DNA of 64,000 bases from positions 620,001-684,000 of the forward strand of contig NZ_CP016162.1 in NCBI RefSeq assembly GCF_001941865.1, given 5' to 3'. This stretch comes from Pseudomonas alcaliphila JAB1 (GTDB taxonomy: Bacteria; Pseudomonadota; Gammaproteobacteria; Pseudomonadales; Pseudomonadaceae). The translations under genes and the position numbers were made by a program. Positions 1,784 through 6,819 of this stretch are shown here, piece by piece. Within the stretch, counting starts at the first letter, position 1. Every line of letters starts with the position of its first letter. Under the pieces are notes generated by a model. That model was not told the DNA's origin. It was given only the letters and a program-made list of their open reading frames with translations, and made no database searches.

Positions 1784-3205
1784 ATGAAGTTGACCATGCC
1801 CCGTTACGATCAAGCCGCCGTCCTGGTGGTGGGCGACGTGATGCTCGATCGCTATTGGCATGGCGGCACCTCGCGGATTTCTCCGGAGGCGCCGGTGCCG
1901 GTGGTGCGTGTCGACCAGATCGAGGATCGTCCCGGTGGTGCTGCCAACGTGGCTCTGAATATCGCCGCGCTCGGCGCGCGAGCCTTGCTGGTTGGTGTGA
2001 CCGGTAATGATGAAGCCGCTGAAAGCCTGAGCGACAGCCTGCGTGGTGCAGGTGTGGATGCACATTTTCAGCGTCATGACAGCCAGCCGACCATCGTCAA
2101 GTTGCGGGTGATGAGCCGTCACCAGCAATTGCTGCGTATGGACTTCGAGGAGCCGTTCAATACCGACACCGTCGCCCTGGCGCGCGAGGTCGATGCGTTG
2201 CTCGATGGGATCAAGGTGCTGGTGCTTTCGGACTATGGCAAGGGGGCGCTGCAGAATCATCAGGCGCTGATCCAGGCCGCGCGTAGGAAAGGCATTGCGG
2301 TGCTGGCCGATCCCAAGGGCAAGGACTTCTCCATCTACCGTGGCGCCAGCCTGATCACCCCCAATCTGCACGAGTTCGAACTCATCGTTGGCGGTTGCGC
2401 CGATGAAGCCGAGCTGGTCAGCAAAGGTGCCACGCTGATGCGCGAACTGGAGCTGGGGGCCCTGCTGGTGACCCGTGGCGAGTACGGCATGACCCTGCTG
2501 CGTCCGGATCACGCCCCGCTGCACCTGCCGGCTCGCGCCCGCGAGGTGTTCGACGTCACCGGCGCAGGCGATACGGTGATTTCTACCCTTGCAGCTTCCA
2601 TTGCTGCCGGCGAAGAGTTGCCGCTGGCGGTGGCCCTGGCCAACCTGGCTGCCGGCATCGTTGTCGGTAAGCTGGGCACTGCTGCCATCAGCGCCCCCGA
2701 GCTGCGTCGCGCGGTCCAGCGTGAAGAAGGTTCCGAGCGTGGCGTGCTGAGCCTGGATCAGTTGCTGATTGCCATCGAGGACGCTCGCGCTCATGGCGAG
2801 AAGATCGTGTTCACCAATGGCTGCTTCGACATTCTTCATGCTGGTCACGTGACCTATCTGGAACAGGCTCGTGCGCAGGGTGACCGCCTGATCGTTGCGA
2901 TCAACGACGATGCCTCTGTCAGCCGTCTGAAAGGTCCTGGGCGTCCGATCAATGCCGTCGACCGGCGCATGGCCGTGCTCGCCGGTCTCGGTGCGGTGGA
3001 TTGGGTGGTGAGCTTCGGTGAAGACACGCCCGAGCGCCTGCTCGCACAGGTACTGCCGGATGTGCTGGTCAAGGGCGGCGACTACGGCATCGATCAGGTG
3101 GTAGGTGCGGATATCGTCCAGGCCCATGGCGGCGAAGTACGTGTGCTGGGGCTGGTCGAAAACAGCTCCACCACCGCTATCGTCGAGAAGATTCGCAGCA
3201 AGTGA
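1784..3205 (+). CDS. hldE: HldE, bifunctional heptose-7-phosphate kinase / heptose-1-phosphate adenylyltransferase
   Basis: Makes ADP-heptose for the lipopolysaccharide inner core in the cytosol. The 473-residue length is normal for the fused enzyme. The N-terminal ribokinase-type domain (about 1-320) carries the GG motif near residue 50 and the catalytic DVTGAGDT motif near residue 260. The C-terminal nucleotidyltransferase domain starts near residue 343 with FTNGCFDILHAGH, containing the HxGH nucleotide-binding motif. The start ATG at 1784 has a GGAG ribosome site about 7 bases upstream. An intrinsic terminator follows directly, closing the msbA-hldE unit. Confidence 0.97.
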   Translation: MKLTMPRYDQAAVLVVGDVMLDRYWHGGTSRISPEAPVPVVRVDQIEDRPGGAANVALNIAALGARALLVGVTGNDEAAESLSDSLRGAGVDAHFQRHDSQPTIVKLRVMSRHQQLLRMDFEEPFNTDTVALAREVDALLDGIKVLVLSDYGKGALQNHQALIQAARRKGIAVLADPKGKDFSIYRGASLITPNLHEFELIVGGCADEAELVSKGATLMRELELGALLVTRGEYGMTLLRPDHAPLHLPARAREVFDVTGAGDTVISTLAASIAAGEELPLAVALANLAAGIVVGKLGTAAISAPELRRAVQREEGSERGVLSLDQLLIAIEDARAHGEKIVFTNGCFDILHAGHVTYLEQARAQGDRLIVAINDDASVSRLKGPGRPINAVDRRMAVLAGLGAVDWVVSFGEDTPERLLAQVLPDVLVKGGDYGIDQVVGADIVQAHGGEVRVLGLVENSSTTAIVEKIRSK

Positions 3206-3211
3206 CACTGG

Positions 3212-3245
3212 GCTGAGCAAGGCGCAGACCTTGCTCAGCTTTTCC
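3212..3245 (+). terminator. Intrinsic terminator after hldE
   Basis: GCTGAGCAAGG and CCTTGCTCAGC form an 11-bp stem with a 6-base loop, followed by TTTT. It separates the msbA-hldE unit from the acyl-CoA dehydrogenase pair. Confidence 0.85.
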
Positions 3246-3347
3246 GTGGCTTGACCCGATTGCCGCCGCGCCGCGTCTTGAGGGTCATAGGCGTGCGCCA
3301 GTCGGCAGCGCATCATCGATGGCATCCCTCACGTGGAGCGAGATGCC

Positions 3348-4619
3348 ATGATCGTCGATACACAGGGCCAGGCCCTGAGCGTACTGAGCAAGCTGGCCCA
3401 GGCCGACTGGCCGGACCGCCTCAAGGTACGCAAATCCTTCGAGAAGCTCGTCTACAGCGGTAGCCGCGCCTGTTTTCGCCTGGCCGCCGGCGGCACCAGC
3501 AACAAGCCGCGCGCGGCAGCCGATGACCTGTTTGATCTGTCACTGACCGAAGAGCAGCAGATGCTGGTGGACATGCTCCAGGGCTTCGCGCTGGAGGTTC
3601 TGCGCCCGGCTGCGCACGGGGCCGACGCCGAGGCTCATGTGCCTGCAGCACTGCTCAATCAGGCGCATGAACTGGGCCTGGCACACTATGGTGTTGCCGA
3701 GGCACAACGTGGCCTTGCTGGGGAGCGCACCGTGCTGAGCAACGCACTGATCGCCGAGAGCCTGGCGCAGGGCGACTTTTCTCTGGCCGCGGCCTTGCTG
3801 GTGCCGCTGTCTGCAGCCAATTGCATTCGGCGCTGGGGAAACTCTGCGCAGCAGGCTGCCTGGTTGCCGGCATTCGTCAGTGAACAAGGCGCGCCAGGCT
3901 TCGCGTTGGCGGTAACAGAGCCCGGCGTATTGACTGATGCTGGTCAGCCCGCGACGCGGGCGCGCAAGCGCGGCAAGCACTATCTGCTCGATGGGGAGAA
4001 GGCGCTGGTCATCGCTGGTCTGGATGCCAGTCGGTTGATCGTAAGCGCCCAGGCAGTTGATGGCCCGGCGCTATTTATTGTCGATGCGACGAGCAAAGGT
4101 GTCTGTCGCCGTGCCGAGCCGGGCATGGGGCTCAAGGCCTGCGGGTTGGCACGTATTCAACTGAAAGGCGTCAAGGTACCGGGCGAGTGCCGTCTGGCAG
4201 GCGAGGGCTTCGATTTTCCGGCCTTTCTCGATTATTCGGCCTTGGCATTCTGTGCCCTTGCAGTCGGTACGGCGCAGGCGGCACTGGACTACGTGACGAC
4301 TTACTGCAACGAGCGCCAGGCGTTCGGCGAGCCGATCAGTCATCGCCAGGGCGTGGCCTTCATGGTGGCCGACATCGCCATCGAGCTGGACGCCATGCGC
4401 CTGCTGCTCTGGCGTGCCTGTGCCCGTGCAGAGTCTGGTCTGCCGTTTCGCCGTGAGGCGTACCTGGCACGCCTGCTCTGTGTGGATAAGGCGATGAAGA
4501 TCGGCTCCGACGCGGTGCAACTGCTCGGCGGCCATGGTTTTACCCAGGAGCACCCGGTCGAGCGCTGGTATCGCGACCTGCGCAGCTTGGCGGTGCTCGC
4601 CGGCGGCCTTCATCTCTGA
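3348..4619 (+). CDS. Acyl-CoA dehydrogenase family protein lacking the catalytic Glu (probable partner subunit)
   Basis: A 423-residue acyl-CoA dehydrogenase-like protein with an extra N-terminal stretch of about 60 residues. I chose ATG 3348 because GGAG lies 9 bases upstream; an in-frame GTG at 3333 is less likely. It keeps parts that normally reach the FAD of the neighbouring subunit: ERQAFGEPI (residues 322-330) and QLLGGHGF with Q391. Its own active site is degraded: the usual EPGxGSD loop reads EPGVLTD, and after VERWYRD, where the family has EGT with the catalytic Glu, it has Ala418 and stops at residue 423. The next gene has the complementary set. Probably a non-catalytic or structural partner in a heteromer; resembles P. 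aeruginosa PA4994 from memory. Confidence 0.85.
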   Translation: MIVDTQGQALSVLSKLAQADWPDRLKVRKSFEKLVYSGSRACFRLAAGGTSNKPRAAADDLFDLSLTEEQQMLVDMLQGFALEVLRPAAHGADAEAHVPAALLNQAHELGLAHYGVAEAQRGLAGERTVLSNALIAESLAQGDFSLAAALLVPLSAANCIRRWGNSAQQAAWLPAFVSEQGAPGFALAVTEPGVLTDAGQPATRARKRGKHYLLDGEKALVIAGLDASRLIVSAQAVDGPALFIVDATSKGVCRRAEPGMGLKACGLARIQLKGVKVPGECRLAGEGFDFPAFLDYSALAFCALAVGTAQAALDYVTTYCNERQAFGEPISHRQGVAFMVADIAIELDAMRLLLWRACARAESGLPFRREAYLARLLCVDKAMKIGSDAVQLLGGHGFTQEHPVERWYRDLRSLAVLAGGLHL

Positions 4620-4633
4620 ACAGGCAGGCAACC

Positions 4634-5845
4634 ATGAATCTGGAAACCCCGAAGAAATTCCGCGGCCTGCAACAGCAGGCGCAGCTGGTGGCCAAACACT
4701 ACTTCCGGCCGATCTCGCGCAAGTATGACAAGGTCGAGCACGCCTACCCCAAGGAGCTGGATCTGCTCGCCGCGTTGCTCGATGGCATGAACGAAGGCTC
4801 ACCCGATGCCGTCGGTGCCGGCTCGGCCAGCAAGCGTGGGGCAGCACGTGAGCAGCAGGCAGGTATCAAGAATGCTGGCAACATGGCTGCGCTGCTCGGC
4901 GTGATTGAGCTGTGCTGGGGCGACGTCGGCCTGCTACTGGCCATGCCGCGTCAGGGCCTGGGCAATGCGGCCATTGCCGCGGTGGCCAATGACGAGCAAC
5001 TGGCGCGGTTCGGCAAGACCTGGGCGGCCATGGCCATTACCGAGCCGGGCTGTGGTTCGGATTCGGCGGCGATTCGCACCACGGCGGTAAAGGATGGCGA
5101 CCACTACATCCTCAATGGCGAGAAGATCTTCGTCACCTCCGGCGAGCGTGCCGATGCCGTGGTGATCTGGGCCACACTGGACATAAGTCTGGGGCGTGCG
5201 GCGATCAAGTCCTTTGTAGTGGAGAAGGGCACGCCGGGGATGACGGTTACACGTCTGGAGAAGAAGCTGGGGATAAAGGCATCCGATACGGCTTCGATCA
5301 GCCTCAGCGATTGTCGGGTGCCGGCGGCCAACCTCTTGGGCAACGCCGAGATCGACGTCCAGAAGGGCTTTGCCGGGGTGATGGAAACCTTCGACAACAC
5401 CCGACCGCTGGTCGCCGGCATGGCGGTCGGCGTGGCGCGCGCGGCGCTGGAGCGTACCCGTGAGTTGCTGCTCAAGGCAGGTTGTCGCTTTGATTACGCC
5501 AAGCCGCTGCTGGCCGTCACTCATGCCGAGGCCACACTGTATCGCCTTGAGGCGGAATGGGAGGCCGCGCGTCTGTTGACGTTGAAGGCTGCCTGGATGG
5601 CTGACAACAAGTTGCCCAACTCGAAAGAGGCCTCGATGGCCAAGGCCAAGGCCGGACGTGTGGCCAGCGAGGTGACGCTCAAGTGCGTGGAGCTGGCCGG
5701 TGCGCTGGGCTACGGTGAGGATGAGTTGCTGGAGAAGTGGGCGCGCGATTCGAAGATTCTCGATATCTTCGAAGGCACCCAGCAGATTCAGTTGCTGATC
5801 GTCGCCCGGCGCCTGCTGGGCAAGAGTTCCAGCGAGCTCAAGTAA
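4634..5845 (+). CDS. Acyl-CoA dehydrogenase (catalytic subunit)
   Basis: Flavoprotein that oxidises an acyl-CoA to the 2-enoyl-CoA; substrate unknown. 403 residues. TEPGCGSDS (136-144) contacts flavin and substrate, and Glu380 in FEGTQQIQ is the expected catalytic base. The regions that in ordinary family members contact the neighbour's FAD are altered: ERxxFGxPI reads CRFDYAKPL (284-292; the Arg is kept) and QxxGGxGY reads ELAGALGY (353-360, Gln to Glu). It starts 14 bases after the previous gene, with a weak ribosome site, so the two are surely co-transcribed. In P. aeruginosa the same pair (PA4994/PA4995, from memory) also lies next to hldE-msbA. Confidence 0.92.
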   Translation: MNLETPKKFRGLQQQAQLVAKHYFRPISRKYDKVEHAYPKELDLLAALLDGMNEGSPDAVGAGSASKRGAAREQQAGIKNAGNMAALLGVIELCWGDVGLLLAMPRQGLGNAAIAAVANDEQLARFGKTWAAMAITEPGCGSDSAAIRTTAVKDGDHYILNGEKIFVTSGERADAVVIWATLDISLGRAAIKSFVVEKGTPGMTVTRLEKKLGIKASDTASISLSDCRVPAANLLGNAEIDVQKGFAGVMETFDNTRPLVAGMAVGVARAALERTRELLLKAGCRFDYAKPLLAVTHAEATLYRLEAEWEAARLLTLKAAWMADNKLPNSKEASMAKAKAGRVASEVTLKCVELAGALGYGEDELLEKWARDSKILDIFEGTQQIQLLIVARRLLGKSSSELK

Positions 5846-5894
5846 TCAAGGTAATCCAATCCGTCGCGAGCTTGTTGCACGTGGCGCATCCTAC

Positions 5895-5926
5895 AAGAAA
5901 AAGCCCGCATCTGCGGGCTTTTTCTT
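5895..5926. terminator. Bidirectional terminator between convergent genes
   Basis: AAGCCCGCA..TGCGGGCTT stem flanked by an A-rich arm on the left and TTTTTCTT on the right, so it can end transcription from both sides. It overlaps the stop codon of the minus-strand lipoprotein gene by two bases. Confidence 0.9.
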
Positions 5927-6644
5927 AGAAGCGGAAGACTTCCGTATCGATCTTGATCGGTTCCGCCACCGGAATCTTCGGCCCGGAAGCGGCTGGGTCC
6001 TGCGGTTTGGCTTTGGCCACTGGAGGCTTCTTGCGCGGCGGCTCGGGAGTAGGCTCGGCTGCAGCGATGGGTTGAATGGCCACAGCCAGTTCAGCCGCCA
6101 GACGTTGCAGCAAGACACTCTGCGCCTTGACCTGTTCGGCCATGGGCCCACCGTGCGCTTCTTCCAAACGAATCAGTCGGCTGTCGCGCAGTTGTCCGCG
6201 GCGGTCGAGCAGGCGCCACTGAGCTTCCAGCACGGCAGGTTGAGTCGGGCCGGAATCCAGGCGGGTAATGGTCAGCATGACCTGAGCATCGGCACTGAAG
6301 CCTGGTGCCGCCGGGGCTAGAACCAGGCGCTGGCTATCCAGGCGCCAGGCCAACTGGCGCAGCATCTGCTGGTCGATATCGTTGGCCAGGCCGCTGGCCC
6401 AGCGGGCATCATGCGCGGCCACCAGGCTGCCATCGGCCTGACGTTGCAGCAGATTTTGCTGGCGCAGGTAATCGGCCACGCTGATCGGGCCGACCAGTAC
6501 GGTCACACCGTTGTCCTGGGTCGGCGTTACGGCGCTGCCGCTATCGAGTTGGTAAAGAGGAACCGGCTTCTGCTGCAGCAGACTGCAACCACTCAATACG
6601 AGCAGCGTGGTCAGAAGCAGAGCCACAGGGCGTACTACAGTCAT
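5925..6644 (-). CDS. PqiC/YmbA-like outer-membrane lipoprotein
   Basis: A 239-residue protein with a lipoprotein signal: hydrophobic stretch then lipobox LSGC with Cys20. The following YQLDSG and VLVGPISVADYL segments match the PqiC (ABC-type transport auxiliary lipoprotein, formerly DUF330) family, which partners MCE-type lipid transporters. I chose the ATG at 6644 (second of two adjacent ATGs) for spacing to GGAA; a longer reading with 31 more residues is possible but would bury the signal peptide. The C-terminal tail after about residue 190 is rich in Pro and Lys. No PqiA/PqiB or MCE gene is nearby, so its partner must be elsewhere. It follows parC on the same strand after 175 bases. Confidence 0.8.
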   Translation of the reverse strand: MTVVRPVALLLTTLLVLSGCSLLQQKPVPLYQLDSGSAVTPTQDNGVTVLVGPISVADYLRQQNLLQRQADGSLVAAHDARWASGLANDIDQQMLRQLAWRLDSQRLVLAPAAPGFSADAQVMLTITRLDSGPTQPAVLEAQWRLLDRRGQLRDSRLIRLEEAHGGPMAEQVKAQSVLLQRLAAELAVAIQPIAAAEPTPEPPRKKPPVAKAKPQDPAASGPKIPVAEPIKIDTEVFRF

Positions 6645-6819
6645 CATTAATTCCAGGCAGCCGCTTCTGGGGCAGCTGCATATCGATCCCATATCATGCT
6701 GTGGGGTCATTTGCGCATGACCCAGGGCGCGTATCATCCGTCAAACCGCGCTACGACTCCAGCCTTGCCTGCTGGCTGGTAGCGCGGATATCCCGGACGA
6801 ACGGGGCGTGTTGCCGACG

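Follow-up and report, generated by a model that had tools for sequence, protein, structure and literature searches.

Do two adjacent genes that each look like an acyl-coenzyme A (CoA) dehydrogenase (ACAD) encode two enzymes, or the two halves of one? The question is raised by a stretch of 64,000 nucleotides from Pseudomonas alcaliphila JAB1 (contig NZ_CP016162.1, positions 620,001 to 684,000; the genome is a single contig of 5.34 Mb), which we call the window. Two open reading frames (ORFs) near its start, both on the forward strand and 14 bases apart, are concerned:

3348..4619, forward strand: P1, an ORF of 423 amino acids counted from an ATG, an ACAD by Pfam and the putative beta-like subunit
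4634..5845, forward strand: P2, an ORF of 403 amino acids, an ACAD by Pfam and the putative alpha-like catalytic subunit

An in-frame GTG 15 bases 5′ of the ATG is an alternative start of P1. Both proteins contain the N-terminal, middle and C-terminal ACAD domains and belong to the ACAD superfamily. The closest named locus, from Pseudomonas chengduensis, is 97% identical in P1.

We consider it highly probable that P1 (beta) and P2 (alpha) are subunits of a single heteromeric ACAD that depends on flavin adenine dinucleotide (FAD), most likely an alpha2beta2 tetramer. In such an enzyme, P2 would hold the flavin ring and the acyl-CoA and supply the catalytic base, Glu380. P1, with no working active site of its own, would lend P2 the Arg, Phe, Gln and Gly residues that touch the adenosine end of FAD and that, in an ordinary ACAD, come from an identical partner. 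Each P1-P2 pair would contain a single FAD and a single active site, and the tetramer two of each. The activity would be that of a dehydrogenase, with electrons presumably passing to electron transfer flavoprotein, and the substrate might be a CoA thioester derived from lipid or hydrocarbon breakdown. The data show the complementarity of the two sequences, the joint occurrence and adjacency of their genes, purifying selection and separate clades; we infer the physical heteromer, its stoichiometry and its dehydrogenase activity.

Complementary FAD half-sites in P1 and P2

FAD contacts were taken from the structure of human short-chain ACAD (SCAD). The contacts of a subunit with its own FAD are Phe152, Leu154, Ser155, Thr187, Gly160, Ser161, Thr364 and Glu396, those contributed by the adjacent subunit are Arg297, Gln365 and Gly369, and the base is Glu392 (PMC13027082). 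Phe300, which belongs to the same motif, was added to the scored contacts on our own judgement, and Thr364 was left unscored. The own side was called complete if Gly160, Ser161 and Thr or Ser at position 187 were present, and the adjacent side if Arg297, Phe or Tyr at position 300, Gln365 and Gly369 were. The alignment comprised 201 P1 and 200 P2 sequences together with rat SCAD and 34 other ACADs, drawn as controls from the genome of the window and its relatives. The P1 and P2 sets consisted of the best 120 sequences of each protein search (each scoring the 7999 candidates with the most words in common), the proteins of the window, and the P1 or P2 of 80 named loci, which are the best 80 of at least 574 relatives in a contig scan; because of this make-up, both sets are rich in Pseudomonas. 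Two P1 rows and one P2 row had a gap at a scored position and were dropped, leaving 199 of each.

The own-side contacts were complete in none of the 199 P1 rows and in 198 of the 199 P2 rows, and the adjacent-side contacts in all 199 P1 rows and in no P2 row (0/199). Both halves stood within one chain in 33 of the 34 controls, the exception (L012_c2) being a very divergent row, and in no P1 or P2 row (0/199 each); neither family thus has both half-sites in one polypeptide, the mark of homotetrameric SCAD and medium-chain ACAD (MCAD). The residues that an initial annotation of this locus had cited are all in place. P1 keeps the neighbour-reaching motifs ERQAFGEPI and QLLGGHGF, reads EPGVLTD at its own flavin site and has Ala418 where the base should be. 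P2 holds an intact isoalloxazine/pyrophosphate half-site (TEPGCGSDS, Thr168) and Glu380, which aligns with Glu392 of human SCAD, and has lost the neighbour-reaching residues (CRFDYAKPL, Glu353, Ala357).

The proposal that P1 has lost its catalytic Glu holds for the window but not for every relative, as this residue is present in 8 of 201 P1 sequences, against 198 of 200 P2 sequences. The constant loss in P1 is that of the flavin half-site (Gly160, Ser161 and Thr187 in human SCAD numbering), not that of the Glu. P1 chains also end early: the median number of residues after the base column is 5 in P1, 23 in P2 and 18.5 in the controls, and P1 of the window has five residues between Ala418 and the stop. 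The neighbour-contacting parts of P2, which had likewise been described as altered, are incomplete in every scored P2 row, with one qualification. If read without a gap, the Arg of CRFDYAKPL becomes the equivalent of SCAD Arg297 (Arg in 63 and Lys in 58 of 200 P2 sequences). Even then the adjacent side is complete in 0/200, since P2 does not conserve Gln365 and Gly369 in combination. Among 50 diverse P2 rows, 44 have Glu at the Gln365 column, 3 have Gln, 2 Ala and 1 Asp; 49 keep the base Glu.

According to the same source, the Q365H variant of human SCAD fails to form tetramers and the activity of G160S is severely impaired (PMC13027082), so losses in either half-site should matter to a self-sufficient ACAD. 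As the losses in P1 and P2 are complementary, only a P1-P2 dimer would form a full FAD site, and the pattern, as read from the alignment, is not a matter of chance. The same counts bear on the simplest alternative, namely that each protein forms a homo-oligomeric ACAD of its own and the two merely share an operon. Both do have the ACAD fold, and unlike ACADs can be neighbours, as are two PF12806-type enzymes in Acinetobacter dispersus. The flavin half-site is, however, incomplete in 199 of 199 P1 rows and the partner half-site in 199 of 199 P2 rows; since each protein lacks a complete half, a normal FAD site would be absent from either homodimer. With no unpaired copy found away from a contig end (see below), we regard two independent enzymes as extremely improbable.

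Joint occurrence of the two genes

Within the genus (E ≤ 1e-60), P1 was found in 28 of 398 genomes, P2 in 28 and both in 26, in 25 of which the two are adjacent by their coordinates; in the remaining one (G076) they lie on two contigs, and the P2 contig opens with the end of P1. The four genomes with only one match (P1 in G252 and G296, P2 in G342 and G378) carry a piece of the partner at a contig end, in the right place, so that these exceptions strengthen the association. In the order (293 genomes), P1 was found in 59 genomes, P2 in 58 and both in 57. P2 lies directly downstream at 74 of 77 P1 places, with a gap of 13–182 bases. Of the other three places, two have a P2 truncated by a contig end and one (G041) is occupied by an ordinary ACAD that has its Glu; in the sole genome with P2 only (G466), P2 is cut at the contig start. 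In the class, the P1 profile matched 9 of 274 genomes. Two of these matches (G774, G894) are ordinary ACADs, and in the remaining seven genomes, that of the window included, P2 stands alongside in all but G719, where the retrieved stretch ends 28 bases past P1.

Across the named loci, which span Pseudomonadota and Actinomycetota, P2 directly follows P1 on its 3′ side in 79 of 80. The last one (L119) stops 229 bases past P1, with the contig end falling inside P2, and the same 5078-base stretch from another collection (L091) closes with residues 1-25 of P2. Hosts of the pair also include Acinetobacter, Alcanivorax, Marinobacter and Nocardioides. Genomes that regularly hold one gene without the other, which the initial annotation had named as evidence that would speak against a heteromer, were looked for and not found in the genus, order or named-locus data, nor was an unpaired copy away from a contig end found among the exceptions checked. 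It had also suggested checking whether the two genes always occur together across Pseudomonas. The pair is not a general trait of the genus, each gene being present in only those 28 genomes. The complementary losses in about 200 homologues of each protein, together with this co-occurrence, lend strong support to its central proposal of one full active site per P1-P2 pair, which is very probably right.

Some loci depart from the simple pair. Two genomes of one genus have a tandem second P2 after a single P1 (G455:C40:172254-174709 and G515:C207:8750-11205). The same genomes also hold a weaker adjacent ACAD pair (L300, 2173-4691; L301, 987-3452), which looks like a fourth type of pair: one member contains DIFEGT, whose Glu is missing from the other. 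Nocardioides (Actinomycetota) has the pair at L169, L164, L168, L170, L173 and L184. L169, the only Nocardioides row in our tree, falls among the Pseudomonadota rows for both P1 and P2, which suggests that the two genes were transferred together.

Selection, subfamilies and predicted structure

Both genes are under purifying selection. In six comparisons each, the ratio of nonsynonymous to synonymous substitution rates (dN/dS) was 0.08–0.20 for P1 and 0.04–0.11 for P2, and P1, given its low ratio, is not a decaying gene. Across 104 loci, the pairwise distances among P1 sequences correlate with those among P2 sequences (r = 0.79), a value that shared ancestry alone could give.

The family comprises a long form, in which P1 has an N-terminal extension of 60 residues, and a short form, often in the same genome and each with its own partner. 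The short form occurs as a pair at 19 of 20 retrieved places, the remaining one (L228, G041) being an ordinary ACAD. Short-form P1 commonly has Glu or Asp at the base column and an altered flavin half-site; because of this alteration, the acidic residue is probably idle. In the window, the extension is the following feature:

3348..3527, forward strand: N-terminal extension of P1, about 60 amino acids, defined by alignment, present in the long subfamily only and absent from the short one

It is predicted, with low to moderate confidence, to form helices at residues 5-17 and 28-47, with a predicted local distance difference test (pLDDT) score of about 49-78 in blocks over residues 1-60. It lies outside the Pfam matches and was found in long-subfamily members from Pseudomonas to Nocardioides. 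The mean pLDDT of the monomer models is 88.9 for P1 and 81.6 for P2.

The extension would suit a second alternative, in which P1 is a pseudoenzyme that serves as a scaffold or regulator and P2 binds FAD in an altered way with itself; so would the absence of the base from most P1 sequences and the early end of their chains (a median of 5 residues past the base column, versus 18.5 in controls). A scaffold, on the other hand, would not need the contacts to a partner's FAD that P1 keeps in 199 of 199 rows, and we find this explanation very improbable.

Several points do weigh against a P1-P2 heteromer with the base in P2. Some P1 sequences, mainly those of the short sister subfamily, still have Glu or Asp at the base position, and Arg285 of P2 could still serve as the equivalent of Arg297. 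In the most distant pair (L004 in genome G032; P1 at 1501-2607, P2 at 2648-3805), P1 has Asp and P2 Gly at the base position, and P2 has Thr at the helix-G column; the family does not, therefore, always keep the base in P2. One genome (G339; L095, G339:C1:943500-947500) has P1 and a P2 that is split between two frames around residues 64-75, by a real break or a sequencing error. Conserved neighbouring genes can also encode separate enzymes. The structure predictions covered the monomers alone, and the complex is a proposal drawn from the sequences. Among the 60 matches listed in sequence searches of solved structures, a heteromer subunit (6wy8) is named for P1 only, and none for P2 or for the P1 profile. 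The evidence on the substrate, finally, is thin.

Genomic surroundings

The features around the pair are as follows; the two neighbouring genes listed are not part of the proposed system:

1784..3205, forward strand: gene of an HldE/RfaE-type bifunctional protein (PfkB kinase and cytidylyltransferase, by Pfam), the upstream neighbour
3213..3243, forward strand: hairpin followed by TTTT between hldE and P1, a likely terminator (minimum free energy (MFE) −23.5, z −3.27)
5895..5926, no strand assigned: A-tract, hairpin and T-tract between P2 and the convergent gene, a likely bidirectional terminator (MFE −22.6, z −7.43)
5925..6737, reverse strand: gene of an ABC-transport auxiliary lipoprotein (by Pfam), downstream and convergent

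An MsbA-type ABC transporter gene precedes hldE, and a ParC-type topoisomerase gene also lies downstream in convergent orientation; all four neighbours were assigned by Pfam, with the finer names resting on our judgement. An equally low MFE was reached by 1 of 200 shuffles for the first hairpin and by 0 of 200 for the second. A consensus scan of positions 3000-6100 listed no promoter-like and no terminator-like site, and neither of the two hairpins. Given the hairpin with its T-run before P1 and the A-tract, hairpin and T-tract after P2, the pair looks like a transcription unit of its own, apart from the lipopolysaccharide (LPS) gene.

The initial annotation had treated the neighbouring LPS genes as part of the setting of the pair. 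These neighbours are incidental: an HldE homologue was called upstream in only 19 of the 80 named loci (18 from Pseudomonas or close relatives and one from Atopomonas), a count that is a lower bound, as neighbours were called by simple ORF calling and P1 or P2 itself was missed in some loci, and in the window the hairpin with its T-run parts hldE from P1. In Pseudomonas aeruginosa, the pair PA4995-PA4994 is probably the direct counterpart (homologues 71% and 88% identical); from their position, we take PA4995 to be P1 and PA4994 to be P2. The literature on this species describes PA4995 as lying next to rfaE, with an asparagine synthetase gene between the two in some ST395 strains (PMC4243448), and the spot 5′ of the pair therefore accepts insertions.

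Function and substrate

Several of the genera that host the pair are users of oil or lipids. The genes around it give no common indication of function, as none of the neighbour families recurs across taxa in the 80 named loci; besides P1 and P2 themselves, the multi-lineage neighbour clusters are clusters 5 and 6, which consist of opposite-strand shadow ORFs overlapping the pair, and a few of 4-10 loci. In P. aeruginosa, according to two expression studies, PA4994 and PA4995 are moderately upregulated with sphingomyelin, alongside the genes of FaoA and FaoB (PMC5150637), and PA4995 is listed among the genes modulated by cis-2-decenoic acid (PMC4412052). We lean towards a lipid-derived acyl-CoA, of whatever chain type, as the substrate.

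A heteromer with another activity, such as an enoyl-CoA reductase or an enzyme acting on steroid-like or otherwise bulky acyl-CoA, has to be weighed here. In NCBIfam, acryloyl-CoA reductase is the top match for each of the two proteins, although its scores (178.5 bits for P1 and 221.7 for P2) are far under the cut-off of 640 bits. In addition, P2 has a conserved Pro105 (window 4946-4948) in its helix-E region, present in 17 of 18 P2 rows and matched within three columns in 1 of 17 controls; in the P2 model this residue falls into a break that separates helices 98-103 and 109-117. A Pro near the start of helix E has been linked to wide substrate pockets in long-chain ACAD (LCAD) and ChsE4 (PMC11153573), and if Pro105 corresponds to it, as we suppose, it could widen the pocket of P2. 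As a sign of a steroid-sized pocket it is weak: Pro is missing around this column from six of seven steroid-type alpha rows, and 17 of 18 P1 rows contain one within three columns. The base Glu kept in 198 of 200 P2 sequences and the absence of a shared neighbour family across taxa in the named loci also speak against such an activity, which we consider unlikely. If the genes are annotated as two unconnected ACADs, metabolic models, attempts to express either protein singly and knock-out studies would all be misled; deletion of either gene should give the same phenotype.

Comparison with known systems

By sequence and fold, P1 and P2 are nearest to the homotetrameric SCAD, MCAD and butyryl-CoA dehydrogenase, with which P2 shares the position of the base. 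Such ordinary ACADs carry both FAD halves in each chain, whereas P1 and P2 have one half each. The models of both proteins have the predicted ACAD fold; the fold matches listed for P1 name the heteromers 6wy8 and 6wy9, while the 50 listed for P2 include no heteromer, and absence from either set of matches is not evidence. PimC/PimD (TIGR03204, TIGR03203) is a named two-subunit ACAD, whose profiles match P1 and P2 with 26-88 bits against cut-offs of 624 and 653; since each protein weakly matches both profiles, there is no one-to-one relation. The IpdE2 profile NF050027 has only matches below its cut-off in the genome of the window. In Acinetobacter, AcdA/AcdB were considered as candidates for the pair, because ACIAD0623 and ACIAD0624 have consecutive numbers (PMC6971185). 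A. dispersus has two PF12806-type ACADs of about 600 amino acids within 2 kb, at about 3.77 Mb, and the pair at 1.32 Mb; because of this distance, acdA/acdB are more likely the PF12806 enzymes. PA4995 and PA4994 are named as probable ACADs or by number only in the accessible parts of PMC5150637, PMC4412052 and PMC4243448, and the open-licence PMC literature, as far as it was available, yielded no description of the pair as a heteromer.

The published heteromeric ACADs that we found in this literature belong to steroid catabolism. They comprise the alpha2beta2 enzymes ChsE4-ChsE5 (FadE26-FadE27), ChsE1-ChsE2 (FadE28-FadE29), Scd1AB and IpdE1-IpdE2, and the fused CasC. In the ChsE4-ChsE5 type, one ACAD binds the isoalloxazine and carries the Glu and the other binds the ADP-ribose end (PMC11153573, PMC8399759). 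The window pair has the same architecture: two polypeptides, one of them with the catalytic Glu (Ala418 in P1, Glu380 in P2), and an FAD site that appears to be split into an isoalloxazine side on P2 and an ADP-ribose side on P1. This much of the initial comparison with the FadE28-FadE29 type stands.

For the comparison, pairs of genome G032 stood in for the published enzymes, FadE28-FadE29 included, which we know by description and not by sequence. G032 has 45 PF02770 matches and 12 PF01796 (ChsH2 OB) matches. From its 42 ACAD rows, seven alpha-like and nine beta-like rows were picked by pattern and position, so that the pattern in these rows is partly a matter of choice; the label steroid-type rests on nearby PF01796 genes, found for three pairs (L280, L281 and L282, among L280-L288), and on that pattern. 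All seven alpha rows have the helix-G Glu and an incomplete adjacent side, and five have a strictly complete own side, the other two having Thr for Ser161. The own side is incomplete in all nine beta rows and the adjacent side complete in six, the other three having His for Gln365. These pairs match the arrangement published for ChsE4-ChsE5 (PMC11153573, PMC8399759). Several further G032 rows, among them L246, L262, L263 and L289, have a degraded adjacent side and were assigned no partner.

When the columns of the FAD contacts and the base are masked, the tree contains four clades with 100/100 support each, namely P1, P2, steroid-alpha and steroid-beta, and P1 and P2 thus fall outside the steroid-type clades. 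The base of P2 is at the C-terminal SCAD/MCAD position (17 of 18 tree rows have Glu there, and all 18 have Thr at the helix-G column), whereas that of the G032 steroid-alpha rows is on helix G in 7 of 7, a trait that is not known to define the steroid type. The gene order differs as well. The window pair runs beta then alpha; of the G032 pairs, six are adjacent on one strand, five of them alpha then beta, and that of L282 is divergent. No steroid genes stand beside the pair, either in the 80 named loci or in the window, where its neighbours are the HldE, ABC and ParC-type genes. Deeper in the tree the picture is less firm. A first quick tree parts the pair from the steroid enzymes at 90, but without two long rows P1 joins steroid-beta at 92.7, and the approximately unbiased (AU) test does not reject a grouping of P2 with steroid-alpha (p 0.525). 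A more careful tree places steroid-alpha with helix-G ACADs at 85/71 and leaves the rest of the deep order unsettled.

The alpha2beta2 split architecture is not new. New are the extent of the family, its tight pairing, the different position of the base and a setting outside steroid catabolism, beyond which the pair carries the design. We tentatively suggest, as a possibility short of an even chance, that P1 and P2 represent a second superfamily of heteromeric ACADs. Its split alpha2beta2 form would have arisen separately from that of the steroid enzymes, starting from a SCAD-like ancestor whose base was C-terminal and proceeding by reciprocal loss. The enzyme would serve lipid or hydrocarbon rather than steroid catabolism, and its genes would have spread as an inseparable pair through Pseudomonadota, probably P. 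aeruginosa among them, and into Actinomycetota. If the design did arise twice, it would be a clear example of how a homomer can become an obligate heteromer through reciprocal degeneration.

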